Source: Magnetospirillum sulfuroxidans (lineage in GTDB: Bacteria > Pseudomonadota > Alphaproteobacteria > Rhodospirillales > Magnetospirillaceae). From it: a stretch of 64,000 bases of DNA. This document shows, piece after piece, positions 4,077 to 51,587 of the stretch. The stretch is taken from contig NZ_JAGTUF010000002.1 of assembly GCF_018224925.1 (NCBI RefSeq), positions 124,001 to 188,000 of the forward strand, in the 5' to 3' direction. Under the pieces are notes generated by a model, which saw only the letters and a program-made list of their open reading frames with translations, did no database searches and was not told the origin of the DNA. Positions within the stretch are counted from its first letter, which is position 1. Every line of letters starts with the position of its first letter. The position numbers were made by a program, and so were the translations under genes.

Positions 4077-5051
4077 TTAGCCTTTGTCAACCTCGCGGCG
4101 GCAGCCATGAGCGCTGCGCACCACATAAAGCGGCCGATTCTTCACTTCCGAGAACACTCGGCCAAGATATTCGCCAATCACGCCCAGACTGATCAACTGC
4201 ACACCGGAGAAAAAGGTGATGGCGACGATCAACGACGGATAGCCGGGAACGTCGATGCCCAGGATCAGCGTCTTGACGATGAACAGCAAGCCGTACAGCA
4301 AGGCGAAACTGGCCACCAAGCTGCCAATGAAGGTCCACACCTTGAGCGGCACCGAGGTGAACGAGGTGATGCCGTCGATGGCCAGCCGCCACAGCCGGAA
4401 CAGATTGAACTTGGTTTCGCCATGGGCGCGGTCGGCGACGTCAAAGGGAATGATGGTCTGCTTAAAACCGACCCAGGCATACAATCCCTTCATGAAGCGC
4501 GCATGTTCGGGCATGGCGTTCAAGACATCGACCACCTTGCGGTCCAGCAGGCGGAAATCACCGGCGCCGGGCGGCAATTGCACTTCCGACACCCGGCCGA
4601 ACATCTCGTAGAACGCCTTGGACGCCAAACGCTTGAAGGCGGTTTCCTGCTCTCGGTCGCGGCGGACGGCGATAACCATCTCGTAGCCGTCACGCCATTT
4701 CGCCATCATCTCCTTGATGGTTTCCGGCGGATGCTGCAAATCGGCGTCGATCATCACCACCGCTTGCCCGCTGGTGTGATGCAAGCCGGCGGTTAACGCC
4801 AGTTCCTTGCCGAAGTTGCGCGACAGCTCGACCACCTTTATCCTGGGGTCCCGTTGGCGATGTTCCAGCACGCGGGCGACGGTGTCGTCCTTGCTGCCGT
4901 CGTCGATACAGACGATTTCGTAACTTTCGCCCAGATCGGCCATCACCTGGGTCAGTCGGGCGAACAAGGTGTCCAGATTGCCCGCCTCGTTGAACATGGG
5001 CACCACCAGGGACAGAACCGGCGGGGCGGAAATGTCAGTCTTCTCGATCAT
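4077..5051 (-). CDS. Family 2 glycosyltransferase with two C-terminal membrane helices (GtrB/ArnC/DPM1-like)
   Basis: This 324-residue protein has an N-terminal GT-A fold starting LSLVVPMFNEAGNLDTLF, with the nucleotide-binding CIDDGSKDDT, the metal-binding IDADLQHPP (DxD), and the processive/polyprenyl motif GDFRLLDRK. Two hydrophobic helices (about 235-262 and 270-297) close the protein. The combination is typical of enzymes that transfer a sugar from a nucleotide donor to undecaprenyl phosphate at the inner face of the inner membrane. Sugar and final glycan are unknown. The start codon is only 21 bases from the start of the divergent deacetylase-like gene. Confidence 0.87.
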   Translation of the reverse strand: MIEKTDISAPPVLSLVVPMFNEAGNLDTLFARLTQVMADLGESYEIVCIDDGSKDDTVARVLEHRQRDPRIKVVELSRNFGKELALTAGLHHTSGQAVVMIDADLQHPPETIKEMMAKWRDGYEMVIAVRRDREQETAFKRLASKAFYEMFGRVSEVQLPPGAGDFRLLDRKVVDVLNAMPEHARFMKGLYAWVGFKQTIIPFDVADRAHGETKFNLFRLWRLAIDGITSFTSVPLKVWTFIGSLVASFALLYGLLFIVKTLILGIDVPGYPSLIVAITFFSGVQLISLGVIGEYLGRVFSEVKNRPLYVVRSAHGCRREVDKG

Positions 5052-7102: not shown

Positions 7103-8406
7103 GCCCAGCCCAACTGCCGCGCCCCGGCCCCCACGGCGGCGCAGACGGTCAGCACCGGCACCATGCCCCACTTGAAGCGCAAGATGGCGATCATCGCCGC
7201 CACCGCCAACACCAAGGATAAGGGCTGCACCGTTCGCCACATCGGCCAAAAACCGTCGAAGCGGGAAAAAGCCACATGCAAGGCGAACCACAGGGCCAGA
7301 TTGAAGATGACGCCGACCACGGCGGCGGTGATGGCGGCCAATGCCGACGACAAAGCGGCATGACCGCGCAACCGCTCCACATGGGGGGCGCCGGCAAAAA
7401 TCCACAGAAAACTGGGAACGAAGGTAACCCAGACCGTCAGGCTGGCCCCCAGCACGCCGCCCAGCCACGGATTGAAATCGCCGGGCTGACGATACCCGGC
7501 CAGAAAGCCGACGAATTGATTGACCAGCACCAGCGGCCCAGGGGTGGTTTCCGCCAACCCCAACCCGTCCAGCATTTCACCGGCACTCAACCAGCCATGG
7601 CTTTCCACCGCCTGCTGCGCCACATAGGACAGCGCCGCATAGGCCCCGCCAAAGGTCACCACCGCCAATTTGGCGAAGAACAGGCCAATGACGGCGAAGG
7701 CGCCGTGGCCATGAATCCAGGCCAATCCCACCGGAGCCAGCCACAGCGCCAGCCACAGCGACACCGTGCCCATTGTCCCCATCGCGCCCATTGTCCCCGT
7801 CGTAACCTTGGCTGGCGCGCCACGTGCCACAATGCCGTCACGACCACGCCACCAGCCGGCCAGACCGGCGGCCAGCACGATCAGCGGAAACGGCAAACCG
7901 ACGGCGAAGATGGCCACGAACGACGCCAGCGCCAAGCCTCGGGCCCACATGTCCTTTAACGCCCGCGCGCCGATGCGCAGGCCCGCCTGCACCACCACCG
8001 CCAGCACCGCCGGTTTCAGCCCCAAAAACAGGCCCTGGACGAAATCCACATGGGTAAAGCCGGCATACAGCGCCGCCAGCCCCAGCATGACGACAAAGCC
8101 CGGCAACACGAACAACAGCCCGGCCACCAACCCGCCCTTGACCCCGTGCAGCAGCCAGCCGGCATAAGTGACCAATTGTTGGGCTTCCGGTCCCGGCAGC
8201 AGCATGCAGAAATTGAGCGCATGCAGAAAACGCGGTTCATCCAGCCAGCGTTTTTCGTCCACCAGAATGCGATGCATGGTGGCGATCTGGCCGGCGGGAC
8301 CGCCGAAAGACAGCAGGCCGATGCGCAGGAAGGCGCGCACGGTTTCGGGAAAATCAGGACGCATGTCGGCACCGTGACAGGGCTTGGCCCTGCGTTCCAG
8401 TGACAT
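7099..8406 (-). CDS. chrA: Chromate transporter ChrA (CHR family, long form)
   Basis: This is a 435-residue membrane protein of the long CHR family, which carries two homologous halves. The first half has the signature FGGPAGQIA and LPGPEAQQL; the second repeats it as FGGAYAALSYV and TTPGPLVLV. Known members expel chromate in exchange for protons or are sulfate-related transporters. Some hydrophilic sequence (about 200-215) separates the halves. The start is uncertain: ATG 8406 has a GGGA upstream, but ATG 8364 (MRPDFPETVRAFLRIG) begins exactly where most ChrA proteins begin. Its stop overlaps the convergent MFS gene stop. Confidence 0.88.
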   Translation of the reverse strand: MSLERRAKPCHGADMRPDFPETVRAFLRIGLLSFGGPAGQIATMHRILVDEKRWLDEPRFLHALNFCMLLPGPEAQQLVTYAGWLLHGVKGGLVAGLLFVLPGFVVMLGLAALYAGFTHVDFVQGLFLGLKPAVLAVVVQAGLRIGARALKDMWARGLALASFVAIFAVGLPFPLIVLAAGLAGWWRGRDGIVARGAPAKVTTGTMGAMGTMGTVSLWLALWLAPVGLAWIHGHGAFAVIGLFFAKLAVVTFGGAYAALSYVAQQAVESHGWLSAGEMLDGLGLAETTPGPLVLVNQFVGFLAGYRQPGDFNPWLGGVLGASLTVWVTFVPSFLWIFAGAPHVERLRGHAALSSALAAITAAVVGVIFNLALWFALHVAFSRFDGFWPMWRTVQPLSLVLAVAAMIAILRFKWGMVPVLTVCAAVGAGARQLGWA

Positions 8407-10673: not shown

Positions 10674-11453
10674 TCAGCGATTGATAAACATCGCCGGCCG
10701 CTTATCGGCGAAGGCCGCCATGCCTTCGCGCCGATCCTCGGTGGCGAAGGTGGAATGAAACAGTCGGCGCTCGAAACGAATGCCCTCGGCCAAAGTGGTC
10801 TCAAAGGCGGCATTAACCGATTCCTTGGCCATCATCACCACCGGCAACGACATCGAGGCGATCTTTTCCGCCGCTTTCAGCGCCTCGGCCTCCAATTCGG
10901 CCAACGGCACGACGCGGCTGACCAGCCCGGCCCGTTCAGCCTCGGCCGCATCCATCTGCCGCCCGGTCAGGCACATTTCCATGGCCTTGGCCTTGCCGAC
11001 GGCGCGGGTCAGGCGTTGTGAACCGCCGGCGCCGGGCATGGTGCCCAGATTGATTTCCGGCTGACCGAATTTGGCGTTGTCGGCGGCGATGATGAAATCG
11101 CACATCATCGCCAATTCACACCCGCCGCCCAGGGCGTAGCCGGCAACCGCGGCGATCACCGGCTTTCTGATGGTGGTGACATGGGTCCAGCCGGTGTTGC
11201 AGAAATCGCGGAAATACACATCCATGAAGGACAAATCCTTCATTTCCTTGATGTCCGCCCCGGCGGCAAAGGCCTTTGGCGAACCGGTCAAAACGATGCA
11301 GCCGATGCCGTCATCGGCCTGAAAAGCATCCAGCGCCAAGGCCAGATCCTCGAATAGCGGCGTGGACAGCGCATTCAACGCCTGTGGCCGGTTCAGACGG
11401 ATCAGGCCGACCTTGCCCTGGGTTTCCACCAAGATGTTTTCGTACGTGGTCAT
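10674..11453 (-). CDS. Enoyl-CoA hydratase
   Basis: This 259-residue crotonase-fold enzyme hydrates trans-2-enoyl-CoA to 3-hydroxyacyl-CoA. Both catalytic glutamates of true hydratases are present, Glu113 (GGGCEL) and Glu133 (GQPEINLG), 20 residues apart as in the rat mitochondrial enzyme. The oxyanion-hole motifs [10 protein letters not shown] and YALGGG are intact. It heads a leftward group that follows the order SDR, 3-hydroxyisobutyryl-CoA hydrolase and malonyl-CoA synthetase upstream, so a role in branched-chain or short-chain acyl-CoA degradation is likely. Its 3' end faces the hemerythrin gene with only 9 bp between. Confidence 0.88.
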
Positions 11454-37912: not shown

Positions 37913-37982
37913 GCTGCCCAAAGTTTAGGCTCCCTGTCCTTGGTTCCGCCGCCAAGCCATTGAGGTATCCTAGAAACCTTAT

Positions 37983-38029: not shown

Positions 38030-38608
38030 ATGAGCCTGCGTGTGATCGTGGTTGACGACGAAGCCGACCGCGCCAGTTCAGTGCGTCATGCACTGGAAGG
38101 CGCCGGCTTTATCGTCGTCGCCACCTGCGCCACCGGCGCCGATTTGCCCCGCAAATTGGCTGAACTGGCCGCCGACGTCGTCATCGTCGATATCGACAGC
38201 CCCGACCGCGACACGCTTGAAGACATGCGCCGCGTCACCATGGAACAACGGCGGCCGGTGGTCATGTTCGCCCAGGACGGCAAACCGGAAACCATCAAGG
38301 CCGCCATCAACGCCGGGGTCGCCGCTTACGTGGTCGATGGCCTTAAACCCGACCGGGTCCGCCCGGTCATTGACGTCGCTATCGCCCGCTTCGCCCAATT
38401 TCAGGAATTACGCCTGGAATTGGACAAGGCTCGCACCACCTTGGCCGAACGCAAATTGGTGGAAAAAGCCAAGGGCATCTTGATGAAACGCCGCAAGGTC
38501 GATGAGGACGAGGCTTATCGGCTGATGCGGCGCATGTCCATGGACCAAAAACTGCGCCTGATCGACATCGCCAACAAGATTATCGAAGCGGCCGAGCTCC
38601 TCGGCTAA
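38030..38608 (+). CDS. nasT: Nitrate-responsive ANTAR antiterminator NasT
   Basis: This 192-residue response-regulator-like protein has a receiver (1-125) with VVDDEADR and Asp54 (IVDIDSPD), a short coiled coil, and a C-terminal ANTAR RNA-binding domain (about 130-187: ERKLVEKAKGILMKRRKVDE, then EAYRLMRRMSMDQKLRLIDI). NasT binds paired hexaloop hairpins in leader RNAs and prevents termination; NasS holds it inactive without nitrate. Both partner parts are found nearby: a fitting leader at 40597-40750 and nasS at 45029. ATG 38030 lies 33 bases after a sigma-54 promoter. The stop codon is inside repeat copy B. Confidence 0.92.
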   Translation: MSLRVIVVDDEADRASSVRHALEGAGFIVVATCATGADLPRKLAELAADVVIVDIDSPDRDTLEDMRRVTMEQRRPVVMFAQDGKPETIKAAINAGVAAYVVDGLKPDRVRPVIDVAIARFAQFQELRLELDKARTTLAERKLVEKAKGILMKRRKVDEDEAYRLMRRMSMDQKLRLIDIANKIIEAAELLG

Positions 38609-40170: not shown

Positions 40171-40562
40171 AACCGCCTCCACACAATCGACCAGATACCT
40201 AAGTATGCATCAACAACTCTGCGTTTTACAATCATTATTAAAAAGAGATTCTGCGAATGAGATTAAACAGACCAACAACACTTGACTAAAAATATTTGTA
40301 ATGATCACTTTTATCTAAAATTATATGAACAGACAGCAATAAAACTCGAAAACCCTGCATGGCACAATCGCCACCGGCGGCACGCCCCTGTCCCATCGGC
40401 GCTCGCGGATCGGGCCTCGCGGCCAAAGCCTTCTCGTCGCCGAACGGACGATCACGGCGCATATTGCTTGTATTTTAATCACAAGTCGGCTTTACGCTTA
40501 TTTTTTGTGCGCAGCGGAAATCCACAAATCCTGAAAGTCCTGAAAATCCGCCGTTGCGCGAT
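40171..40562. other. AT-rich intergenic region upstream of the nitrate operon
   Basis: This stretch between the chemotaxis receptor start and the sigma-54 promoter holds no convincing gene. It is clearly more AT-rich than the rest of the window, especially 40200-40350. It should carry the receptor promoter (leftward) and upstream activator sites for the nitrate operon (rightward). I could not identify a clear NtrC palindrome by eye. Confidence 0.5.
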
Positions 40563-40577
40563 TGGCATGCCGCTTGC
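40563..40577 (+). promoter_or_regulatory. Sigma-54 type promoter of the nitrate assimilation operon
   Basis: TGGCATG CCGC TTGC has the invariant GG (40564-40565) and GC (40576-40577) ten bases apart and differs from consensus only at the C of TGGCAC. The predicted start near 40589 is eight bases before the first leader hairpin, so the whole ANTAR element would be in the transcript. Confidence 0.7.
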
Positions 40578-40596
40578 GTTTACGATGGGACGACGT

Positions 40597-40690
40597 GGTT
40601 GTCTCAATGGCGAGAAGACCGCGCACCGAGATCAGATAACGGTTCTTCCGGGCGATGACGTCCGACGAGAACCAGGAACAACGGCGTTCC
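40597..40690 (+). promoter_or_regulatory. ANTAR (NasT) target leader RNA: hairpins P1 and P2
   Basis: P1 (40597-40620) pairs GGTTGTCTC with GAGAAGACC, one mismatch, and has the hexaloop AATGGC. P2 (40675-40690) pairs GGAAC with GTTCC and has the hexaloop AACGGC. Both loops have A at position 1 and G at position 4, the hallmark of ANTAR-bound RNA. P2 uses bases 40680-40690 that also form the 5' arm of the terminator, so P2 and the terminator exclude each other. A further hairpin (40641-40673) lies between them. NasT binding would stabilise P2 and allow read-through. Confidence 0.8.
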
Positions 40691-40750
40691 ACGGATTGCT
40701 CCTCTGGATTCAGAGGGTACGCAGCCCCGTGGAACGCCGTTTTTGTTTTT
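40680..40750 (+). terminator. Leader terminator of the nitrate operon
   Basis: Fifteen-base perfect arms AACGGCGTTCCACGG (40680-40694) and CCGTGGAACGCCGTT (40727-40741) enclose a loop with a nested hairpin CCTCTG(gatt)CAGAGG (40701-40716), and are followed by TTTTTGTTTTT. It ends 27 bases before the nrtA start. Its position before the operon and its overlap with P2 mark it as a conditional terminator. Confidence 0.9.
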
Positions 40751-40777
40751 GGCCTTTGCACACGAAGGAAGCAAAGC

Positions 40778-42187
40778 ATGACGAGCAAGACGGTGTTTCC
40801 GATGACTTTCAGCCGCCGCGCCGCTTTGGGCCTGGGCCTTGCCGCCGCCATGACGGCATTGGCGCCCTTGGCCGCCGACGCCGCCGCCTTGAAGCTGGAA
40901 AAGGACGAGCTGAAGCTGGGCTTCATCAAACTGACCGACATGGCGCCGCTGGCCATCGCCAAGGAAAAGGGCTTTTTCGAGGATGAAGGCCTGTACGTCA
41001 CGCTGGAACCGCAGGCCAATTGGAAAGTTCTGCTCGACCGGGTGATCTCGGGCGAATTGGACGGTGCCCACATGCTGGCCGGCCAGCCCCTGGGCGCCAC
41101 CATCGGTTATGGCACCAAGGCCCATGTCGTCACCGCCTTTTCCATGGACCTGAACGGCAACGGCATCACCGTTTCCAACGATGTGTGGGAAGCGATGAAG
41201 CCGTTCCTGGCCAAGGACAAGGACGGCAAGGTTGTGCACCCGATCAAGGCCGACGCGCTGAAGAAGGTGATCGACCAGTACCGGGCCGCCGGCAAGCCCT
41301 TTAACATGGGCATGGTCTTCCCGGTCTCCACCCATAATTACGAATTGCGTTACTGGCTGGCCTCGGGCGGGATCAATCCGGGCTATTACAGCCCCGACAA
41401 CGTCTCGGGCCAGATCGGCGCCGACGCCCTGTTGTCGGTGACGCCGCCGCCGCAAATGCCCTCGACCCTGGAAGCCGGCACCATCAACGGCTATTGCGTC
41501 GGCGAGCCATGGAACCAGGCCGCCGTCTTCAAGGGCATCGGCGTCCCGGTGATCACCGATTACGAAATCTGGAAGAACAACCCGGAAAAAGTGTTCGGCG
41601 TCACCGCCGATTGGGCGAGCAAAAACCCCAACACCCATCTGGCGGTGGTCAAGGCGCTGATCCGCGCCGGCCAATGGCTGGATGAAAACAACAACGCCAA
41701 TCGGGCCGAAGCCGTCAAGATCCTGGCCAAGCCGGAATATGTCGGCGCCGACGCCAAGGTGATCGCCAATTCCATGACCGGCACCTTTGAATATGAAAAG
41801 GGCGACAAGCGCGACGTTCCCGATTTCAACGTCTTCTTTCGCTACAACGCCACCTATCCCTATTACTCGGACGCGGTGTGGTACCTGTCGCAGATGCGCC
41901 GCTGGGGACAAATCGCCGAGGCCAAGCCCGATGCCTGGTTCGCCGACACCGCCAAAAGCGTCTATCGCCCCGACATCTATCTGAGCGCCGCCAAGATGCT
42001 GGTGGACGAAGGCAAGGCCAAGGCCGCCGATTTCCCCTTTGGCTCTGACGGCTATCGGGCGCCGACCAATGAATTCATCGACGCCATCACCTTCGACGGC
42101 AAAAAGCCCAACGATTACCTGAAGAACTTCGCCATCGGCCTTAAGGGCGCTCAAAGCGTGGTCGGCAACAAGGTGATCGCCAAGTAA
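40778..42187 (+). CDS. nrtA: Nitrate ABC transporter substrate-binding protein
   Basis: This 469-residue protein has a Tat-type signal ([17 protein letters not shown], cleavage near ADAAA) and an NrtA/CmpA-family body: [21 protein letters not shown], then [14 protein letters not shown] and [24 protein letters not shown]. It binds nitrate or nitrite in the periplasm. ATG 40778 has AAGGAA about nine bases upstream; the open frame further upstream runs through the leader terminator and is not coding. It is the first gene of the operon. Confidence 0.92.
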
Positions 42188-42249: not shown

Positions 42250-43332
42250 ATGACCAGCCTTTCCCAGGCCGCCGGCAATGCGCCGGCCCCCAAGCCCACC
42301 ACCGCCGTTATCGTCCCCGTCTTGCTGAAGATCGCCGCAATGTTGTCGGTGGCCGGTCTGGGCTGGGTCGCCCCGCTGATCCGACTGGCAATCGGTGACG
42401 CCCCGCGTCAGCAAGCGGCCGAGCTGTGGCGTCAACTGGGCATCCCCATGCTGTCCATCGGCTTGTTCTTGTTGGCCTGGGGCGTGGCGGCGCCACAGGT
42501 TCAGACCTCGCTTGGCGCCATTCCCGGCCCGGCCCAGGTGTGGGAGCAGGTGGTGGTTCTGGCCAAGGACCATGTGGCCGAACGGGCCAAGGCGGACGCC
42601 TTCTACGAACGCCAAGACAAGCGCAACGCCCAATTGCGGAGCGAGGATCCCCACGCCGAAATCAAGATCCGCAAATACACCGGCAAGCCCACCTATGTGG
42701 ATCAGATCTGGACCAGCTTGCAGACCGTCTTCATGGGCTTCGTGCTCGCCACCATCATCGCCGTGCCGCTGGGGGTGCTGTCCGGCCTGTCCAAGACCGC
42801 CCAGGCGGCGATGAACCCCTTGATCCAGATTTTCAAGCCGGTCTCGCCGCTGGCCTGGCTGCCGCTGGTGACCATGGTGGTCAGCGCCCTTTACGTCAGC
42901 GACACCCCCATATTCGAGAAAAGCTTCCTTAATTCCGCCATCACCGTGACCTTGTGCTCGTTGTGGTCAACCCTGATCAACACCGCCGTCGGCGTCGCCT
43001 CCATCGACAAGGATCTGATGAATGTCGGCCGCGTGCTCAACCTGTCTTGGTTCACCACCGTGCGCAAGTTGGTGCTGCCGTCGTCGCTGCCCTACATCTT
43101 CACCGGCCTGCGGCTGTCCCTGGGCGTGGGCTGGATGGTGCTGATCGCCGCCGAAATGCTGGCGCAGAACCCAGGGCTCGGCAAGTTCGTGTGGGACGAG
43201 TTCCAAAACGGCTCGTCGCAATCGCTGGCCAAGATCATGGTCGCCGTCTTCAGCATCGGCATCATCGGCTTCCTGCTCGACCGGCTGATGTTCGCGCTGC
43301 AATCCATGTTCACCTTCTCCGCCACCCGTTGA
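42250..43332 (+). CDS. nrtB: Nitrate ABC transporter permease
   Basis: This 360-residue binding-protein-dependent permease has two hydrophobic segments (about 22-50 and 65-87) and a polar region (about 95-155), followed by the standard permease core with the coupling loop [20 protein letters not shown]. NrtB-type residues [17 protein letters not shown] are present. The polar insertion ([20 protein letters not shown]) is longer than in cyanobacterial NrtB but is common in proteobacterial homologues. Confidence 0.9.
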
Positions 43333-43346
43333 TCAGGACGATTGTC

Positions 43347-45011
43347 ATGGCAATTCTGGAACTCAAGGGCGTCGGCAAAAGCTTCGGCCGCACCAATGTC
43401 CTGGCCGGCATCGACCTGGCCATCGAAGAAGGCGAATTCATCGCCATCCTTGGTTTCTCCGGTTCGGGCAAAAGCACCTTGGTGTCGTTGATGGCCGGCC
43501 TCAGCCAGCCCGATCAGGGCGAAATTCTGCTGCATGGTAAAAAGATCACCGGCCCCGGCGCTGATCGCGGCGTGGTGTTTCAAAGCTATTCCCTGATGCC
43601 GTGGCTGACCGTCCAAGGCAACATCGCCCTGGCGGTCAACGCCACCACCCCCAAGGCAAGCGCGGCCGAACGGGCGGAAATGGTGGCCAAATATATCCAG
43701 ATGGTCGGCCTGGCCCACGCCGCCGACCGCCGCCCGGCCGAGCTTTCCGGCGGTATGCGCCAGCGTGTCGCCGTCGCCCGCGCCCTGGCCATGCGCCCGG
43801 AAATCCTGCTGCTGGACGAACCTCTTTCGGCCCTGGACGCCCTCACTCGGGCCAAGTTGCAAGACGAGATCGAGGCGATCTGGTCCGGCGACAAGAAGAC
43901 GGTGGTGCTGATCACCAACGACGTCGACGAAGCCCTGTTGCTGGCCGACCGGGTCATTCCCCTGAACCCCGGCCCCGGCGCCACCTTCGGCCCCGCCTTC
44001 ACCGTCGACCTGCCGCGCCCGCGCGACCGCACCGCCGTCAATTCCGATGAAACCTTCAAGCGTCTGCGGGCCGAGATCACCGCCTATCTGATGGCCGCCG
44101 GCATCGAAAGCAAGGCCGCCATCAGCGACAGCAAGACCAGTCTTCCCGCCGTCTTGCCGATCACCGCCAACCGACCGCCCCAGGCCTATGCCCAGGCCGG
44201 CCGGGCCAACAATCCCGACCGCTATCTCGAATTCACCCAGCTTAAAAAGATCTATCCCACCGCCAAGGGACCGCTGACCGTGGTCGATGGGTTCGATCTC
44301 AAGATGAAGCAGGGCGAATTCATTTCATTGATCGGCCATTCCGGCTGCGGCAAATCCACCGTGCTGACCATGACCGCCGGCCTGACCGGGGTATCGGAAG
44401 GCGGCATCATTTTGGATGGGCGCGAAGTCACCGAAGCCGGCCCCGACCGCGCCGTGGTGTTCCAGGCCCCCAGCCTGTTTCCCTGGCTGACCGCCCTGGA
44501 AAACGTCGCCCTGGGCGTCGACCGCGTCTATCCCCACGCCAGCCCGGCGGAACGCCGCGACATCGTCACCTATTACCTGGAACGCGTCGGTCTGGCCGAT
44601 GCCCTTAATCGCCCCGCCGCCGACATGTCCAACGGCATGAAGCAACGCGTCGGCATCGCCCGCGCCTTCGCCTTGTCGCCGAAACTGCTGCTGCTTGACG
44701 AACCCTTCGGCATGCTGGACAGCCTGACCCGCTGGGAATTGCAGGAAGTGCTGATGGAAGTGTGGGCGCGGACCAAGGTCACCGCCATCTGCGTCACCCA
44801 CGACGTCGACGAGGCCATCTTGATGGCCGACCGGGTGGTGATGATGACCAACGGCCCCCATGCCCGCATCGGCAAGATCGTCGATGTGGATATCGAGCGT
44901 CCGCGCACCCGCCGCGCCTTGCTGGATCATCCCCGCTATTACCACTACCGCCAGGAAGTTCTGAACTTCTTGGATGAATACGAACACGGCGCCCAGGCGA
45001 AAGCCGGCTGA
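43347..45011 (+). CDS. Fused double ATP-binding subunit of the nitrate transporter
   Basis: This 554-residue protein joins two complete ABC domains. Domain 1 (about 3-255) has GFSGSGKST (36-44) and [15 protein letters not shown]; domain 2 (about 290-550) has GHSGCGKST (330-338) and the altered signature [16 protein letters not shown] Pro/Ala-rich linker lies between. It thus replaces separate NrtC and NrtD ATPases in one chain; the NrtA-like tail of cyanobacterial NrtC is absent. ATG 43347 follows nrtB by 14 bp; the frame open upstream is inside nrtB. Naming as nrtC or nrtD would be arbitrary. Confidence 0.88.
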
Positions 45012-45028: not shown

Positions 45029-46207
45029 ATGACTTTGGAACTGAACCGCCTGAAACTGGGGATCGTGCCGCTGATGGACGCGGCCCCCATCGTCGTCGCC
45101 AAGGAACGCGGCTTCTTCGCCGAACAAGGCCTGGACGTGGATATCAGCCGCGAGCCCAGTTGGGCCAATATCCGCGACAAGGTCGCCGTCGGCGCCCTGG
45201 ACGGCGCCCAGATGCTCGCCCCCATGCCGCTGTCCATGAGCTTGGGTCTGGGGGCCATCCGCGAACCGGTGATCACCGGCCTGGCCCTCAATCTGGGCGG
45301 CAACACCATCACTTTGTCGGCGGCGCTGTGTCATCGCCTCTTGGCACAGGGCGGCCTGACCGGCGCCGCTCTCAAGCAGGTGATCGCCGACGACAAACTG
45401 GCCGGCCGGCCGGCCTTGGCTTTCGCCATGGTCTATCCGTTTTCCACCCATAATTACGAATTGCGCTTTTGGCTGGCCGCCGCCGGCATTGATCCCGACC
45501 GCGATGTCCGCCTGACCGTGGTGCCGCCGCCGCAGATGATCGGCCATATGTCGGCCGGCAACATCGCCGGTTTTTGCGTCGGCGAGCCTTGGGGGTCGCT
45601 GGCCGCCAGCATGGATCTGGGCACCATCGTCGCCACCTCGGACAGCATCTTCGCCGGCCGTCTGGAAAAGGTGCTGGGCGTCACCCGCGCTTGGGCCGAC
45701 AGCCATCCCGAAACCCATAACGCCCTGATCAAGGCGGTTCTCGCCGCCGCCTCGTGGTGCGAGGCCAATCGCGGCGAAACCGCCGATATCATGGCCCAAC
45801 CGGCCTATGTCAACGTCCCGCGGGAAACCGCCCGCGCCGCCCTGACCGGACCGCAAGCGCCGCATTTTTCCGCCCATTGCGCCAACTTCCCCTGGCGCAG
45901 CCAAGCCATGTGGTACCTGACCCAGATGCAGCGCTGGGGCCAATTGAGCCACAGCGTCGATCTTCGCCGCATCGCCGAGGAAGTCTATCGCCCCGACCTG
46001 TTCCGCCTCGCCGCCCTGGAACTGGGATTGCCGGTGCCGTTGATCGACCACAAAAGCGAAGGCGGCCATGCCCAACCCTGGATTTTGGACAAGGCCACCG
46101 CCCCGATCGCCATGGGACCGGACCTGATGTTGGGCGGTGTCCGCTTCGATCCCGCCCCAGGCTCTGAAACTCCGGCGCAGCCCGAGCATGCAGAAGGACT
46201 TTCGTGA
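45029..46207 (+). CDS. nasS: Cytoplasmic nitrate/nitrite sensor NasS (NrtA-like, no signal peptide)
   Basis: This 392-residue protein is a paralogue of NrtA ([59 protein letters not shown]) but starts directly with the mature fold; no signal peptide or Tat motif precedes it. NasS proteins bind nitrate in the cytoplasm and, without nitrate, sequester NasT. Here nasS is inside the nitrate operon rather than next to nasT. The stop overlaps the nirB start by one base. A second exported transporter component is the alternative, disfavoured by the missing signal. Confidence 0.85.
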   Translation: MTLELNRLKLGIVPLMDAAPIVVAKERGFFAEQGLDVDISREPSWANIRDKVAVGALDGAQMLAPMPLSMSLGLGAIREPVITGLALNLGGNTITLSAALCHRLLAQGGLTGAALKQVIADDKLAGRPALAFAMVYPFSTHNYELRFWLAAAGIDPDRDVRLTVVPPPQMIGHMSAGNIAGFCVGEPWGSLAASMDLGTIVATSDSIFAGRLEKVLGVTRAWADSHPETHNALIKAVLAAASWCEANRGETADIMAQPAYVNVPRETARAALTGPQAPHFSAHCANFPWRSQAMWYLTQMQRWGQLSHSVDLRRIAEEVYRPDLFRLAALELGLPVPLIDHKSEGGHAQPWILDKATAPIAMGPDLMLGGVRFDPAPGSETPAQPEHAEGLS

Positions 46208-48660
46208 TGAATTCTGTCCCCCGCCAACGTCTGGTCGTCATCGGTAACGGCATGGCCGGCATGCGCACGGTCGAGGAATTGCTGGCCCGCGCCCCGGTCC
46301 GCTATGACATCACCGTTTTTGGCGCCGAACCGCACCCCAATTACAACCGCATCATGCTGTCCTCGGTACTGGCCGGGGAAAAGCAGATCGACGACATCAT
46401 CATCAACCCACGCGCCTGGTACACGCAAAACGCCATCACCTTGCATGCGGGCGATGCCGTCATCGGCATTGACGCCAAGACCAAGACGGTCACCGCCGCC
46501 TCGGGCCTTCGCGTCGCCTATGACAAGCTGTTGCTGGCCACCGGCTCCAAGCCGTTGATGCCGCCGCTGCCCGGCCTGGACCTGCCCGGAATCGTCACCT
46601 TCCGCGATATCGCCGATATCGACAAGATGTTGGCGGCGGCCGAGGCCAAGCAGCGCGCCGTGGTCATCGGCGGCGGGCTGCTGGGCCTGGAAGCCGCCTG
46701 GGGCCTGAAACGGCGCGGCATGCCCGTTGCCCTGGTGCATCTGATGCCGACATTGATGGAACGGCAATTGGACACCGAGGCCGGCACCTTGCTGCAACGT
46801 GACCTTGATGAGCGCGGCCTGCATTTCTTCACCTCGGGCCAGACCGAACGGATCATCGGCAGCGAACGGGCCGAGGGCGTCGCCTTGGCCGATGGCCGCA
46901 CCGTTCCCGGCGATCTGGTGGTCGTCGCCATCGGCATCCGCCCCAATGTCGACATGGGCAAGGCGGCGGATGTGGACATCAATCGCGGCATCTTGGTCGG
47001 CGACGACATGGCGACCAGCGATCCCGACATTTATGCGGTGGGCGAATGCGTCGAACATAACGGCCAAGTCTTCGGCCTGGTGGCGCCGATCTGGGAACAG
47101 GCCAAGGTCTGCGCCGCTCGATTGGCCGGGGACACCGTCGCCAGCTACGTCACCCCGGCTTTGTCCACCCGTCTCAAGATCACCGGTATCGACGTGTTTT
47201 CCGCCGGCAAGCTGGCGGCCGAAGACGATGGTGACGAGGAAGTGGTGTTCCGTGACGCCGCCAAGGGCGTCTACCGCAAGCTGGTGGTGCGCGGCAACCG
47301 GCTGGTGGGCGCCGTCCTGTATGGCGATGTCGCCGATGGCGGCTGGTATTTCGACCTGATCAAGGGCAACAAGGACGTCGCCGAGATGCGCGACCGCCTG
47401 ATCTTCGGCCAAGGCTTCGCCGATCAGGATTGTTGCGGCGGAAGCAAGGCCGGTCTGAATGTCGCCGCCATGACCGATGACACCCAGGTGTGCGGCTGCA
47501 ACGGCGTCTCCAAGGGGGCCATCGTCAAGGCCATCGGTGAAAAGGGTCTGACCACGCTGGACGAAGTGCGCGCCCACACCAAGGCTTCGGCCAGTTGCGG
47601 CATGTGCACGCCGACGGTTCAGGCCATCTTGTCCTTCGTCACCGGGTCCGACGCCGCCGCGCCGGAAGTGATGTGCAAATGCACCGATCACGGCCACGAC
47701 CATGTTCGCCATGCCATCCTTGACCAGCGGCTCAAGACCATGGCGGATTTGCGCGAGGCCCTGGGCTGGAAAACCGCCGATGGTTGCGCCAAATGCCGGC
47801 CGGCGCTGAATTATTACCTGCTGTGCGCCTGGCCGGGCGAATACGTTGACGATTACCGCTCGCGCTTCATCAACGAACGGGTCCACGCCAACATCCAAAA
47901 AGACGGCACCTATTCGGTCATTCCGCGCATGTGGGGCGGCGTCACCACCCCGGCCGAATTACGTGCCATCGCCGATGTCGCCGACAAGTTCAACATTCCC
48001 ACCGTCAAGGTCACCGGCGGTCAGCGCATCGACCTGCTGGGGGTGAAAAAGCAAGATCTGCCGGCCGTCTGGGGCGACCTCAACCAGGCGGGGCTGGTCT
48101 CCGGCCACGGCTACGCCAAGGGGCTGCGCACGGTCAAGACCTGCGTGGGGTCGGAATGGTGCCGCTTCGGCACCCAGGATTCCACCGCCCTGGGCATCAA
48201 ACTGGAAAAGATGATGTGGGGATCGTGGACGCCGCACAAGGTCAAGCTGGCGGTGTCGGGGTGCCCGCGCAATTGCGCCGAGGCCACCATCAAGGATATC
48301 GGCATCATCTGCGTCGAGGCCGGCTATGACATGGTCATCGGCGGCAATGGCGGCATCGAGGTGCGGGTGACCGATCCGCTCACCCGGCTGACCACCGAGG
48401 CCGAGGTTCTGGAATATTCCGCCGCCTTCATGCAGCTCTACCGCGAGGAAGGTCATTACCTGGAGCGCACCGCCCCTTATCTGGAACGTGTCGGCCTCGC
48501 CCATATCAAGGCGCGCATCCTTGAAGACGATGCCGGCCGCAAGGCGCTCTACGCCCGCTTCTTGTTCGCCCAAAGCTTTGCCCAGGACGACCCGTGGGCG
48601 GAACGGGCCGGCGGCGGCGTCGATGCCCATGAATTCCAATCCTTAGCGGTGGTGAGCTGA
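46207..48660 (+). CDS. nirB: Assimilatory NADH nitrite reductase, large subunit
   Basis: This 817-residue enzyme has an FAD/NAD domain at the N-terminus (LVVIGNGMAGMRTVEELL, then AVVIGGGLLGLEAAWGLKRRG), a BFD-type [2Fe-2S] domain with Cys429, Cys431, Cys464 and Cys467, and the sirohaem/[4Fe-4S] domain with Cys646, Cys652 (CVGSEWC), Cys686 and Cys690 (CPRNC). It reduces nitrite to ammonium in the cytoplasm. ATG 46207 overlaps the nasS stop and has AGAAGGA upstream. All cofactor ligands needed are visible. Confidence 0.95.
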   Translation: MNSVPRQRLVVIGNGMAGMRTVEELLARAPVRYDITVFGAEPHPNYNRIMLSSVLAGEKQIDDIIINPRAWYTQNAITLHAGDAVIGIDAKTKTVTAASGLRVAYDKLLLATGSKPLMPPLPGLDLPGIVTFRDIADIDKMLAAAEAKQRAVVIGGGLLGLEAAWGLKRRGMPVALVHLMPTLMERQLDTEAGTLLQRDLDERGLHFFTSGQTERIIGSERAEGVALADGRTVPGDLVVVAIGIRPNVDMGKAADVDINRGILVGDDMATSDPDIYAVGECVEHNGQVFGLVAPIWEQAKVCAARLAGDTVASYVTPALSTRLKITGIDVFSAGKLAAEDDGDEEVVFRDAAKGVYRKLVVRGNRLVGAVLYGDVADGGWYFDLIKGNKDVAEMRDRLIFGQGFADQDCCGGSKAGLNVAAMTDDTQVCGCNGVSKGAIVKAIGEKGLTTLDEVRAHTKASASCGMCTPTVQAILSFVTGSDAAAPEVMCKCTDHGHDHVRHAILDQRLKTMADLREALGWKTADGCAKCRPALNYYLLCAWPGEYVDDYRSRFINERVHANIQKDGTYSVIPRMWGGVTTPAELRAIADVADKFNIPTVKVTGGQRIDLLGVKKQDLPAVWGDLNQAGLVSGHGYAKGLRTVKTCVGSEWCRFGTQDSTALGIKLEKMMWGSWTPHKVKLAVSGCPRNCAEATIKDIGIICVEAGYDMVIGGNGGIEVRVTDPLTRLTTEAEVLEYSAAFMQLYREEGHYLERTAPYLERVGLAHIKARILEDDAGRKALYARFLFAQSFAQDDPWAERAGGGVDAHEFQSLAVVS

Positions 48661-48661
48661 C

Positions 48662-48997
48662 ATGACCAACTGGATCGATATCGGCACCATCGCCGACATT
48701 CCCCGCCTGGGCGCCCGCACGGTGGAAACCGCGCTCGGGCAAGTGGCGGTGTTCCGCACCGCCGAGGACGAAGTCTTCGCCCTGATCAACAAATGCCCGC
48801 ACAAGAACGGCCCCTTGTCGGAAGGCATCGTCATGGGCCGCAAGGTCGCCTGTCCGCTGCATAATTGGGTCATCGACCTCAATAGCGGACATGCCGACGC
48901 CCCCGATGAAGGCTGCACCACCCCTTTGGCCCTCAAAGACGAAGGCGGCCGCCTGCTGCTGGGCCTGGACGCCGTCGCCGCGGTGGCCCATGGCTGA
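48662..48997 (+). CDS. nirD: Nitrite reductase small subunit (Rieske-type)
   Basis: This 111-residue protein keeps Rieske ligands: Cys45/His47 (CPHKNGPL) and Cys64/His67 (CPLHNW), so it can hold a [2Fe-2S] cluster, unlike the enterobacterial NirD that lacks them. It pairs with NirB. Its start is one base after the nirB stop, and its last eight bases overlap the start of nasA, so the three are tightly coupled. Confidence 0.92.
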   Translation: MTNWIDIGTIADIPRLGARTVETALGQVAVFRTAEDEVFALINKCPHKNGPLSEGIVMGRKVACPLHNWVIDLNSGHADAPDEGCTTPLALKDEGGRLLLGLDAVAAVAHG

Positions 48998-51587
48998 GCC
49001 CATCCGCACCACCTGTCCCTATTGCGGCACCGGCTGTGGAATCATCGCCGAAAAGTCCGCCGCTGGCTGGGCGGTGCGGGGCGACCCGGAACACCCGGCC
49101 AATTATGGCCGACTGTGTTCCAAGGGCACCACCCTGGCCGACACCTTGGGCCTGGAAACCCGGCTGTTGCAGCCCGTGGTCGATGGCCGCCCCAGCGATT
49201 GGGACACCGCCATCACCGAGACGGCGGGGCGTATCCGCGCCGTCACCGATCTGCACGGCCCCGACGCCTTTGCCTTTTACCTGTCCGGTCAGTTGCTGAC
49301 CGAGGATTATTACGCCGCCAACAAGCTGGCCAAGGGCTTCATCGGCACCGCCAATGTCGATACCAATTCACGCTTGTGCATGGCGTCCACCGTCGCCGGC
49401 CACCGCCGCGCCTTTGGCTCTGACACCGTCCCCGGCTGCTATGAAGACCTTGAACGCGCCGATCTGGTGGTTTTGGTCGGCTCGAATCTGGCGTGGTGCC
49501 ATCCGGTCTTGTTCCAACGCCTGAAAAAAGCCCGTGACCTGCGCGGCACCAAGGTGGTGGTCATCGACCCCCGCCGCACCGATAGCTGCGACATCGCCGA
49601 TCTGCATCTGCCATTGGCCCCCGGTTCGGACGTCGCCTTGTTCAATGGGCTGCTGGCCCATTGCGAGGCGGCGGGCGCGTTGGATTTCGCCTTTATCGAC
49701 GCCCACACCACCGGTTTCAGCGAAACCTTGGCGGCGGCGCGGGCCGGCGATGTCGCCGTCACCGGCCTGGATCGCGGCAACCTGACCCGTTTCTTCGACC
49801 TGTTCGCCACCACCCGCAAGGTGGTCACCGTGTTTTCCCAGGGGGTCAACCAATCCTCGGCCGGCACCGACAAGGTCAGCGCCATCCTTAACGTTCATCT
49901 CGCCACCGGCCGCATCGGCCATACCGGCATGGGACCGTTCTCGGTCACCGGCCAGCCCAACGCCATGGGGGGGCGCGAAGTCGGCGGACTGGCCAACCAA
50001 CTGGCCGCCCATATGGGTTTTGACCCGGTCAGCATCGACCGCGTCGGCCGCTTCTGGAAGGCGGCGAAAATGGCGACCTCCGAAGGGTTGAAGGCGGTCG
50101 AACTGTTCCGCGCCATTGACGCCGGCAAGGTCAAGGCCGTGTGGATCATGGCCACCAATCCGGCGGTCAGCCTGCCCGAAAGCGATCTGGTCCGCCGCGC
50201 CCTGGCCAAATGCCCGGTGGTTATCGTCTCGGATGGCGTCGCCGATACCGACACCTTGCGCTTTGCCCATATCAAACTGCCCGCCCATGCCTGGGGCGAA
50301 AAAAGCGGCACGGTGACCAATTCCGACCGCACCATTTCCCGGCAGGCGCCCTTCCTGTCCCCGGCCGGCGAGGCCCGCGCCAATTGGTGGGCGGTTGCGC
50401 AAGTGGCCCGCGTTCTTGGCCACGGCCAGGCTTTCGCCTGGCCAGGCCCCCAACAGGTGTTCGACGAATATGCCCGTCTGACCGGCTTCGAAAACGGCGG
50501 CAGCCGCGACCTTGATCTGTCCGAGGCCCTGAGCCTTGATTACGACCGCTTCCGTCCATTCCAGTGGGGCGGCAAGCGCATGTTCGGCGACGGCCGCTTT
50601 TATACCGCCGACGGCCGTGCCGTCTTGGTCCCGGTCAGCCATCGCCCGCCCAAGGAAAATCTCAGCCTTCGCTATCCGCTGCGCCTGAATACCGGGCGGT
50701 ATCGCGACCACTGGCACACATTGACCCGAACCGCCCTGGCTCCCCGATTGTCGGGGCACCGGCCCGAGGCGCTGCTTGATATCCATCCCGACGACGCCGC
50801 CAAGGCGGGCCTGACCGACGGCGCCCTGGCCGTGATCCGCAGCCGTCTGGGCCAGATGATCGCCCGCGCCCGGCTGACGCAGGAACAACAGCCCGGCCAC
50901 GTCTTTTTACCCATGCATTGGAACGATTGCTTCGCTGCCCAAGGATTGGTCGGCAGGCTATTGCCCGGTCATACCGATCCGCTATCGGGACAGCCGGAAT
51001 CCAAGCATGCGGCGGTGCGGGTGACCCCTTTCGCCGCCACCTGGGCTGGGGCGTTGATCTGCGCGGCCCCGCCGCCGCTGACGCCGCCATGGTGGAGCCG
51101 CCATCGCCAAGGCCCGGCGCAAGTGGTGGAGATGGCCGGAACCGCGCCCGCGCAGATCGCCGCCCAACTCGACGCCCTGGACCAGCATTTCGGCCCCCAT
51201 CGGCTGGAAATCGTCGATGCCGCCCGCGGCATCGCCCGCTATGCCTGGATCACCGATGGCAAATTGGTCGCGGCCTTGTTCATTGCCCCCGACCGGCCGG
51301 ACATGGCCCGCGCTTGGGTCGCCGGACTGATCGGCACCTCCTTGGAGGACGGAAGCGAACGCACCGCCATCCTCGCCGGCAAGGCCCCTGGTGGCCAAGC
51401 CGACCAAGGCCCCATTATTTGCGCCTGCTTTTCCGTCGGGCTGCACACCATCCAGCGCCTGATCGCCAGCGGCCAGGTTTCCAGCGTCGCCGCTATCGGC
51501 GCGGCGCTGAAAGCCGGGACCGGTTGCGGTTCCTGCGTGGGTGAACTGAAAGGATTATTGGCGCGAAAGGAAACGGCCCTCGCCTGA
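48990..51587 (+). CDS. nasA: Assimilatory nitrate reductase catalytic subunit with C-terminal [2Fe-2S] domain
   Basis: This 865-residue molybdoenzyme has an N-terminal [4Fe-4S] motif (Cys9, Cys12, Cys16, Cys43), a molybdopterin domain with the likely Mo-ligand Cys130 (NSRLCMAST), MPT-binding segments (ATGRIGHTGMGPFSVTGQPN) and a molydopterin-dinucleotide C-domain (LNTGRYRDHWHTLTRT). The last 60 residues form a BFD-like domain, CACFSVG followed by GTGCGSC. There is no Tat signal, so it is cytoplasmic. No separate NasB/NasC reductase is in the operon, so electrons probably come from ferredoxin or flavodoxin. ATG 48990 overlaps nirD by eight bases. Confidence 0.94.
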   Translation: MAEPIRTTCPYCGTGCGIIAEKSAAGWAVRGDPEHPANYGRLCSKGTTLADTLGLETRLLQPVVDGRPSDWDTAITETAGRIRAVTDLHGPDAFAFYLSGQLLTEDYYAANKLAKGFIGTANVDTNSRLCMASTVAGHRRAFGSDTVPGCYEDLERADLVVLVGSNLAWCHPVLFQRLKKARDLRGTKVVVIDPRRTDSCDIADLHLPLAPGSDVALFNGLLAHCEAAGALDFAFIDAHTTGFSETLAAARAGDVAVTGLDRGNLTRFFDLFATTRKVVTVFSQGVNQSSAGTDKVSAILNVHLATGRIGHTGMGPFSVTGQPNAMGGREVGGLANQLAAHMGFDPVSIDRVGRFWKAAKMATSEGLKAVELFRAIDAGKVKAVWIMATNPAVSLPESDLVRRALAKCPVVIVSDGVADTDTLRFAHIKLPAHAWGEKSGTVTNSDRTISRQAPFLSPAGEARANWWAVAQVARVLGHGQAFAWPGPQQVFDEYARLTGFENGGSRDLDLSEALSLDYDRFRPFQWGGKRMFGDGRFYTADGRAVLVPVSHRPPKENLSLRYPLRLNTGRYRDHWHTLTRTALAPRLSGHRPEALLDIHPDDAAKAGLTDGALAVIRSRLGQMIARARLTQEQQPGHVFLPMHWNDCFAAQGLVGRLLPGHTDPLSGQPESKHAAVRVTPFAATWAGALICAAPPPLTPPWWSRHRQGPAQVVEMAGTAPAQIAAQLDALDQHFGPHRLEIVDAARGIARYAWITDGKLVAALFIAPDRPDMARAWVAGLIGTSLEDGSERTAILAGKAPGGQADQGPIICACFSVGLHTIQRLIASGQVSSVAAIGAALKAGTGCGSCVGELKGLLARKETALA

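Follow-up and report, generated by a model that had tools for sequence, protein, structure and literature searches.

The 64,000-nucleotide stretch of Magnetospirillum sulfuroxidans DNA analysed here (the window) carries, directly before a set of nitrate genes, a leader which the initial annotation had read as an ANTAR antitermination RNA with two hexaloop hairpins, an extra hairpin between them and a terminator. ANTAR RNAs are described as dual stem-loops in the parts of the published work used here (PMC3369931, PMC8934654, PMC8164766), and the question raised by this locus is what a third hairpin means for such a leader. Our analysis indicates that it is very likely a NasT-opened transcription attenuator with three hexaloops, placed ahead of the nitrate genes. 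Judged by sequence, it is a variant of the ANTAR leader with three hexaloops, seen repeatedly in different alphaproteobacterial families, and by analogy its mechanism is most likely the NasT antitermination which is already known.

Three hexaloop hairpins and a terminator in the leader

All elements of the leader lie on the forward strand. Folding placed the distal hexaloop hairpin, P0, at 40594–40623, with the loop AAUGGC at 40606–40611 (its first base is A and its fourth G, hereafter A1 and G4), and the proximal hexaloop hairpin, Pm, at 40641–40673, with the loop GAUGAC at 40654–40659. Sequence and folding together gave P2, the candidate antiterminator hairpin GGAAC-AACGGC-GUUCC at 40675–40690 (loop 40680–40685, again with A1 and G4), while the intrinsic terminator at 40680–40750 has 15-bp arms (40680–40694 and 40727–40741) enclosing an inner hairpin, followed by TTTTTGTTTTT, and on its own folds at -41.8 kcal/mol. 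The loop and 3' arm of P2 form part of the 5' arm of the terminator, so that the two compete for bases 40680–40690, and because these bases are common to both, P2 and the full terminator are mutually exclusive. The segment 40589–40757 folds at -81.8 kcal/mol with the terminator (free fold) and at -66.6 kcal/mol when P2 is forced. In all of this the initial annotation was borne out, both in where it placed the three hairpins and the terminator and in the A1/G4 residues and mutual exclusion which it described. The 171-nt stretch 40590–40760 has a folding z-score of -5.97, with none of 200 shuffles equally low.

The spacing of the hairpins differs from the assignment made at first. Measured from loop to loop, Pm lies 26 nt and P0 74 nt before P2, and it is therefore Pm, which had been called the extra hairpin, that sits at the known P1 distance (24 nt in eutP of Enterococcus faecalis, taken from A29/A53; PMC3369931) and not the hairpin that had been named P1, which is our P0. 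The linker between P0 and P2 is 51 nt long (40624–40674) with a hairpin inside it, and is thus outside the short linkers that define dual-hexaloop RNAs, while that between Pm and P2 measures 1 nt if the Pm stem forms completely and 10 nt if only the inner Pm stem forms. Conversely, the pair of perfect A1/G4 hexaloops is provided by P0 and P2, whereas Pm lacks A1 and has a near-perfect loop of the GANG type.

A descriptor for an A1/G4 hexaloop overlapping the 5' arm of a T-tailed stem found the leader in the window, with an upstream partner, and on the opposite strand two weak sites of 8 bp, of which one also has an upstream hexaloop. A search for the P2 box that allowed no mismatch gave a single site in the genome. 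Rfam gave no matches, and so no ANTAR family, at gathering scores over the whole window, and only two chance-level matches, neither of an ANTAR family, at E up to 10 over 40300–40900. A promoter/terminator scan did not report the leader terminator, as its limit for terminator loops is 8 nt; it listed two sigma-70-like sites compared with 1.2 expected. Upstream, at 40563–40577 on the forward strand, lies TGGCATGCCGCTTGC (GG-N10-GC at 40564–40577), which we take to be a sigma-54-type promoter. RNA is accordingly predicted to start at ~40589, directly before P0. In 18 of 21 family leaders, a count made without a shuffle control, a GGCAY-N5-NTGC motif ends 24–41 nt before the distal loop.

Gene context of the leader

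All genes described here are on the forward strand. The nasT gene (38030–38608, where 38030 is a chosen start and the longest open reading frame begins at 37982) encodes the REC and ANTAR domains expected of the NasT of a NasS-NasT system (Pfam ANTAR, 7.1e-20; Response_reg, 3.1e-13). No other ANTAR match was obtained in the genome. The gene lies 2 kb upstream of the leader and sits behind a chemoreceptor gene on the opposite strand. The first gene after the leader is nrtA (40778–42187), for a nitrate-binding protein with a signal-like N-terminus (NMT1_2, 1.3e-97 with a longer open reading frame), and its product clusters with the annotated CmpA/NrtA of Ruegeria and Roseibium with 100/100 support in an unrooted tree. 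The permease gene nrtB (42250–43332) has ntrB as its best NCBIfam match, under the cut-off (158.6 of 209.05 bits), and is followed by an nrtC/nrtD-type ATPase gene (43347–45011, start codon picked by eye) with two ABC domains in one frame (ntrCD, in two stretches). Thus the nrtC- and nrtD-type ATPase domains are fused into a single reading frame at 43347–45011.

Next, at 45029–46207, is a gene for an NrtA-like protein which, judged by eye, has no signal peptide, and which we take as NasS, the cytoplasmic nitrate sensor, from this feature and its placement in the tree. In the unrooted tree this candidate belongs to a seven-row clade (98/95) with nasT-adjacent proteins of three relatives (G014, G028 and G030), with the NrtA clades apart, but the proteins next to nasT in Rhodobacterales, Roseibium, Phyllobacterium and G052 do not group with it. 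It is followed by nirB, for the nitrite reductase large subunit (46204–48660; TIGR02374, 2.7e-274), and by an assimilatory nitrate reductase gene (48891–51587, start unrefined; Molybdopterin, Molydop_binding and Fer2_BFD, with a NasC-like match below cut-off). We infer that nrtA-nrtB-nrtCD-nasS-nirB-nas form one operon, and nasS is apparently among the genes that the leader controls. In four annotated plasmids (Ruegeria, Roseibium, Rhodobacter and Phyllobacterium) the order is nasT, a substrate-binding protein at the place of nasS, nrtA, and the rest, with product names given by the record annotators as ANTAR proteins and ABC-transporter substrate-binding proteins. There nasT and the nasS-like gene are adjacent, whereas in the window nasT is solitary and nasS is downstream of the leader; with nasS behind a leader opened by NasT, its expression would exert negative feedback on NasT.

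Conservation and covariation within the family

We assembled 21 leaders with a GGAAC-type P2 from the relatives first fetched, the window included, and built alignment A3 and covariance model R1 from 18 of these rows, the window among them. Two leaders were left out since their Pm loops were misplaced in a first MAFFT alignment, A2 (L070:9762 and L073:10563), and one since it has no Pm hexaloop (L063); model R1 recovers all three (L063 there as L126). Over the 18 rows the three-hairpin structure is paired in 80.4% of cells, compared with 68.0% in shuffles and 32.5–48.8% in slid pairings, and 73 cells are changed on both sides compared with 34.8 in shuffles (0/500 as high), a comparison that is flattered because the structure was drawn partly from the fold of the window itself and the aligned leaders are relatives of one another. 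Of the five covariation measures, two gave weak results, namely the number of pairs with changes on both sides (16 against 14.0, reached by 44/500 shuffles) and the number of further pair types (41 against 36.7, reached by 56/500). Changes on both sides are seen among the relatives in 7/10 pairs of the P0 stem and in 9/12 pairs of the Pm stem (helices 2 and 3), while the three outermost Pm pairs form in only 55.6% of cells. The P2 stem is invariant in 18/18 rows, so that covariation cannot be tested there, an invariance that is expected since this stem must also form the terminator.

In the genome of the window, model R1 has one strong match (80.9 bits, E 9.9e-15), followed by one of 16.7 bits (E 1.49). 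Of the 55 genomes of the window's family, 30 carry a leader that it recognises, and across the class 4 of 387 genomes do, two of these being weak matches beyond the family (E about 1e-3). The precise form seen in the family is therefore local, and any wider claim rests on the descriptor scan given below. Conservation of the loops and stems in relatives, which had been proposed as a check of the initial annotation, is thus seen both in the covarying stems of the 18 rows and in these family genomes. Among named genomes the exact P0...P2 pattern was found in 23 stretches (records very near the window's genome are possibly omitted), under names including Magnetospirillum, Paramagnetospirillum, Telmatospirillum and Phaeospirillum, Rhodospirillales and Proteobacteria metagenome-assembled genomes, and one such genome labelled Stygiobacter.

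P0 and Pm in 37 family leaders

We then compared 37 matches to the model in the family loci scanned, looking for P0 with A1 and G4 and for Pm with a purine at position 1 and G4 (position 2 was left free); as the model was trained on P0, Pm and P2 together, complete leaders are favoured among the 37, and the rows are related. P0 is present as an A1/G4 hexaloop in 35/37 leaders, 36–78 nt before P2, and its loop reads AAYGGC in 34 of the 35. Pm is present in 33/37 as a hexaloop 23–30 nt before P2 (loop to loop), with the loop RANGNN. Like the window, 22 leaders have G at position 1 of this loop, and the other 11 have A. Position 2, for which the scan did not ask, is A in 33/33. Pm is therefore a conserved third hexaloop hairpin and no oddity of this genome, and the initial description of it as unusual does not hold. 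Pairing of G1 with C6, which would turn Pm into a tetraloop, is possible in 9 of 15 G1 loops, would be G-U in 3 and is impossible in 3, and so fails to account for the set as a whole.

All 37 leaders keep one or more A1/G4 hexaloops upstream of P2. In the two where P0 is missing, L125 and L196:10723, Pm has A1, and P0 is present in all 26 leaders in which Pm has G1 or is lacking, which reads as P0 and Pm backing each other up.

Several leaders depart from the common form. In L126 (the same as L063; genome G002) at 1501–1583 the proximal hexaloop is absent and a plain hairpin is found instead, and in L127 (G028) at 1501–1564 it is likewise absent, with the distal loop 36 nt from P2 and the leader between nasT and a nasS-like gene. 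L125 (G019) at 1501–1599 is a leader in a genome with no detected ANTAR protein (assembly 95% complete, 360 contigs). Genome G073 (L196) has a two-hairpin leader at 10723–10773, with an A1 hairpin at the place of Pm, before an open reading frame of an MFS-type transporter (NarK-like by eye), and three-hairpin leaders at 7452–7552 and 4145–4239 before nrtA-like and nasS-like frames (by eye). With one two-hairpin and two three-hairpin leaders under its single ANTAR match, G073 is a natural experiment.

Leaders in other families and other classes

The descriptor scan was extended to 85 loci, made up of part of the ANTAR-gene surroundings from other families and eight plasmid records (including that of the betaproteobacterium Caballeronia), and gave 49 candidates with P2 plus terminator from 41/85 loci, 47 of them alphaproteobacterial. 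Using distance windows that were set after inspecting earlier scans of these loci, a distal A1/G4 hexaloop 36–80 nt upstream was found in 30/49 (200 shuffles: mean 1.8, maximum 6), a proximal hexaloop with R at position 1 and G4 at 15–30 nt in 31/49 (mean 1.6, maximum 7), and both together in 19/49 (mean 0.0, maximum 1). Without the two Caballeronia rows these values are 28, 31 and 19 of 47, and of 4000 random genomic 90-mers drawn from 70 of the loci, 4.4% (177) were distal-like and 4.6% (185) proximal-like. The 19 candidates with both hexaloops span 12 of 25 family labels. The 49 also include 7 with neither upstream hexaloop, 9 with only a proximal A1 loop and 3 with only a proximal G1 loop. 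Six were judged false-looking, and the 43 left after their removal consist of 14 with distal and A1 proximal hexaloops, 5 with distal and G1 proximal, 9 with distal only, 9 with proximal A1 only, 3 with proximal G1 only and 3 with neither.

Clear three-hexaloop cases are L250, L249, L217 and L216. In Rhodobacter sp. CZR27 (L258) three A1/G4 hexaloops are visible by eye between the nasS-like gene and nrtA, the upstream two at distances of 50 and 23 nt from the P2 loop; the scan missed this leader as its P2 stem is only 3 bp. In an earlier descriptor listing L253, L254, L256, L257 and L258 had no candidate near the nas genes. The slightly different, stricter filter behind the 49 candidates gave one in Ruegeria (L254), with no upstream hexaloop, and in Paracoccus AK26 (L253) no such leader was seen in the stretch inspected. 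This filter dropped some earlier candidates (for example L172, L184 and L236) and retained some false-looking ones. At L248 (G303) three candidate leaders of differing hairpin make-up (952, 4639 and 9957) lie within ~9 kb around one ANTAR gene.

Outside the class we ran the same scan on 25 loci that belong to other classes of this phylum, and again on Caballeronia. It gave 23 candidates, some surely false, with a proximal hexaloop in 9 (17–28 nt), a distal hexaloop in 8 (40–86 nt), and both in 0/23. In eleven loci of this set the ANTAR frame is 404–478 amino acids long, which is the length of NIT-ANTAR proteins such as NasR; four have the two-hairpin form at 25–27 nt, four have candidates with no proximal hexaloop and three have no candidate, and none of the 11 has a distal hexaloop at 36–80 nt (L279 has one at 86). 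The published two-hairpin form is thus seen outside the class, while the double upstream arrangement has so far been seen in Alphaproteobacteria alone. In two genomes of one family in the same phylum (f222; L278 at 8610 and L271 at 8578), A1/G4 hexaloops lie 83–86 and 48–51 nt before P2 with a non-hexaloop hairpin between them, which is yet another spacing.

Roles of P0, Pm and P2

In the mechanism that we propose, transcription would start at ~40589, probably by RNA polymerase carrying sigma-54 and under nitrogen control, so that P0 would be transcribed first. When nitrate is absent NasS would hold NasT and the nascent RNA would form the 15-bp terminator, and when it is present NasT would be freed, bind the hexaloop hairpins and stabilise P2. 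As the P2 bases belong to the 5' arm of the terminator, this would give read-through into nrtA-nrtB-nrtCD-nasS-nirB-nas. Binding by NasT and the response to nitrate we infer by analogy with the characterised systems. A contrasting view, that this is an ordinary terminator or a leader under other control with coincidental hexaloops, we regard as highly improbable: a terminator by itself would look identical, yet the hexaloop frequencies exceed those of shuffles and random 90-mers, the stems covary, the single ANTAR gene is nearby upstream and nitrate genes follow. Conservation, terminator exclusion and this gene context likewise support the initial reading of a NasT-type antitermination leader.

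For the three hairpins we tentatively favour P0 as the main loading site, Pm as a weaker intermediate at the usual place of P1, and P2 as the antiterminator. How NasT would use them is a proposal that we hold more loosely still, in which it is loaded on P0 at the onset of transcription, passed to Pm (weak because of G1 in the window and in most relatives) and delivered to P2 shortly before terminator formation, or else an oligomer of NasT holds all three loops. In structural work on EutV, one dimer cannot hold both loops and is thus proposed to be recruited first to P1 and then to P2 (PMC8934654), and with such transfer a third loop would fit as an early loading site or relay station; freed NasT of Paracoccus is an oligomer broadly consistent with a hexamer (PMC3795266), so that simultaneous binding of three loops may also be possible. 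Against this arrangement stand G1 in the window's Pm (mutations of A1 reduce binding and induction by EutV; PMC3369931), the absence of Pm from 4/37 and of P0 from 2/37 family leaders, and the 74 nt between P0 and P2, which is beyond the spacing reported as workable for EutV, where a linker extended to 14 nt, or one made 20 nt longer, harmed antitermination (PMC3369931, PMC8934654).

It is also conceivable, though in our view unlikely, that this is an ordinary dual-hexaloop leader in which Pm and P2 are the working pair despite G1, and P0 is an accessory or earlier loading site. The distance of Pm from P2 would suit this, being close to that in eutP and in the two-hairpin leaders found outside the class next to long ANTAR frames, as would the conserved Pm stem and A2, and the occurrence in G073 of a two-hairpin leader with A1 at the Pm place alongside two three-hairpin ones; however, G1 is found in 22 of the 33 family Pm loops, with P0 present in all 22 of these leaders and in the four that have no Pm. 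Less likely again is that P0 and P2 are the working pair and Pm only a spacer that folds up the linker, as the initial annotation suggested in saying that the hairpin may tune the spacing. The plain hairpin at the Pm place in G002 agrees with this, as do other leaders (e.g. L226 and L248:952) that have P0 plus an intervening hairpin with no hexaloop, and the single-stranded linker from P0 to P2 shortens to 18 nt if the Pm hairpin is counted as a point. A spacer has no need of a loop sequence, however, and a purine-and-G4 hexaloop with A2 is kept at this place in most family leaders, and in far more of the candidates beyond the family than in shuffles; a loop conserved on a covarying stem argues that Pm is more than a spacer, although it may tune the spacing.

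Should the relay or three-loop holding prove true, the rule of two hexaloops would be a special case and three hexaloops would be a standard form of alphaproteobacterial nitrate leaders. The dual-hexaloop ANTAR model rests largely on EutV, with the transfer of the dimer from P1 to P2 an open point (PMC8934654), and leaders with a third hexaloop, their natural versions without P0 (G019) or without Pm (G002 and G028), and the mixed leaders of G073 are test cases for it. Searches that consider short linkers only could misassign or miss alphaproteobacterial nitrate leaders.

Comparison with known ANTAR systems

In the open-access literature that our search covered, we found no description of an ANTAR or NasT leader with three hexaloops. 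The eutP, eutG, eutS and eutA leaders (EutV), nasF (NasR) and amiE (AmiR), as far as the parts of the papers used here describe them, resemble the window leader in their A1/G4 hexaloops and in a P2 that overlaps the terminator (PMC3369931, PMC8934654), as well as in an ANTAR protein acting in trans, predicted in our case, and a target in nitrogen metabolism. They differ in having two hexaloop hairpins where the window leader has three, and in the latter P2 has its perfect partner 74 nt upstream, and the loop at the usual distance of P1 begins with G. Linkers between the hairpins are 5–12 nt in the eut leaders (PMC3369931), and 2–25 nt was used as a criterion for actinobacterial ANTAR RNAs (PMC8164766).

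Among NasT systems, the leaders of nosR and related genes in Bradyrhizobium diazoefficiens, which we compared by their description, are alike at the level of mechanism, as NasT freed from NasS binds them and prevents the terminator (PMC6759348). In Paracoccus denitrificans the same two kinds of protein act with a hairpin leader before nitrate genes (PMC3795266, PMC5424462); in Paracoccus NasS and NasT dissociate with nitrate or nitrite and NasT binds the nasA leader RNA (PMC3795266). There nasT and nasS are cotranscribed, whereas in the window nasT is alone and nasS follows the leader. The nasA hairpins HI and HII of this species lie 137 and 91 bp upstream, an offset of 46 bp (PMC3795266, PMC5424462), and mutation of HI severely lowers induction, but mutation of HII does not (PMC5424462). 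From this offset our guess is that HI may equal P0, and if HI is indeed the distal hexaloop, then the Paracoccus denitrificans mutants would already show its importance.
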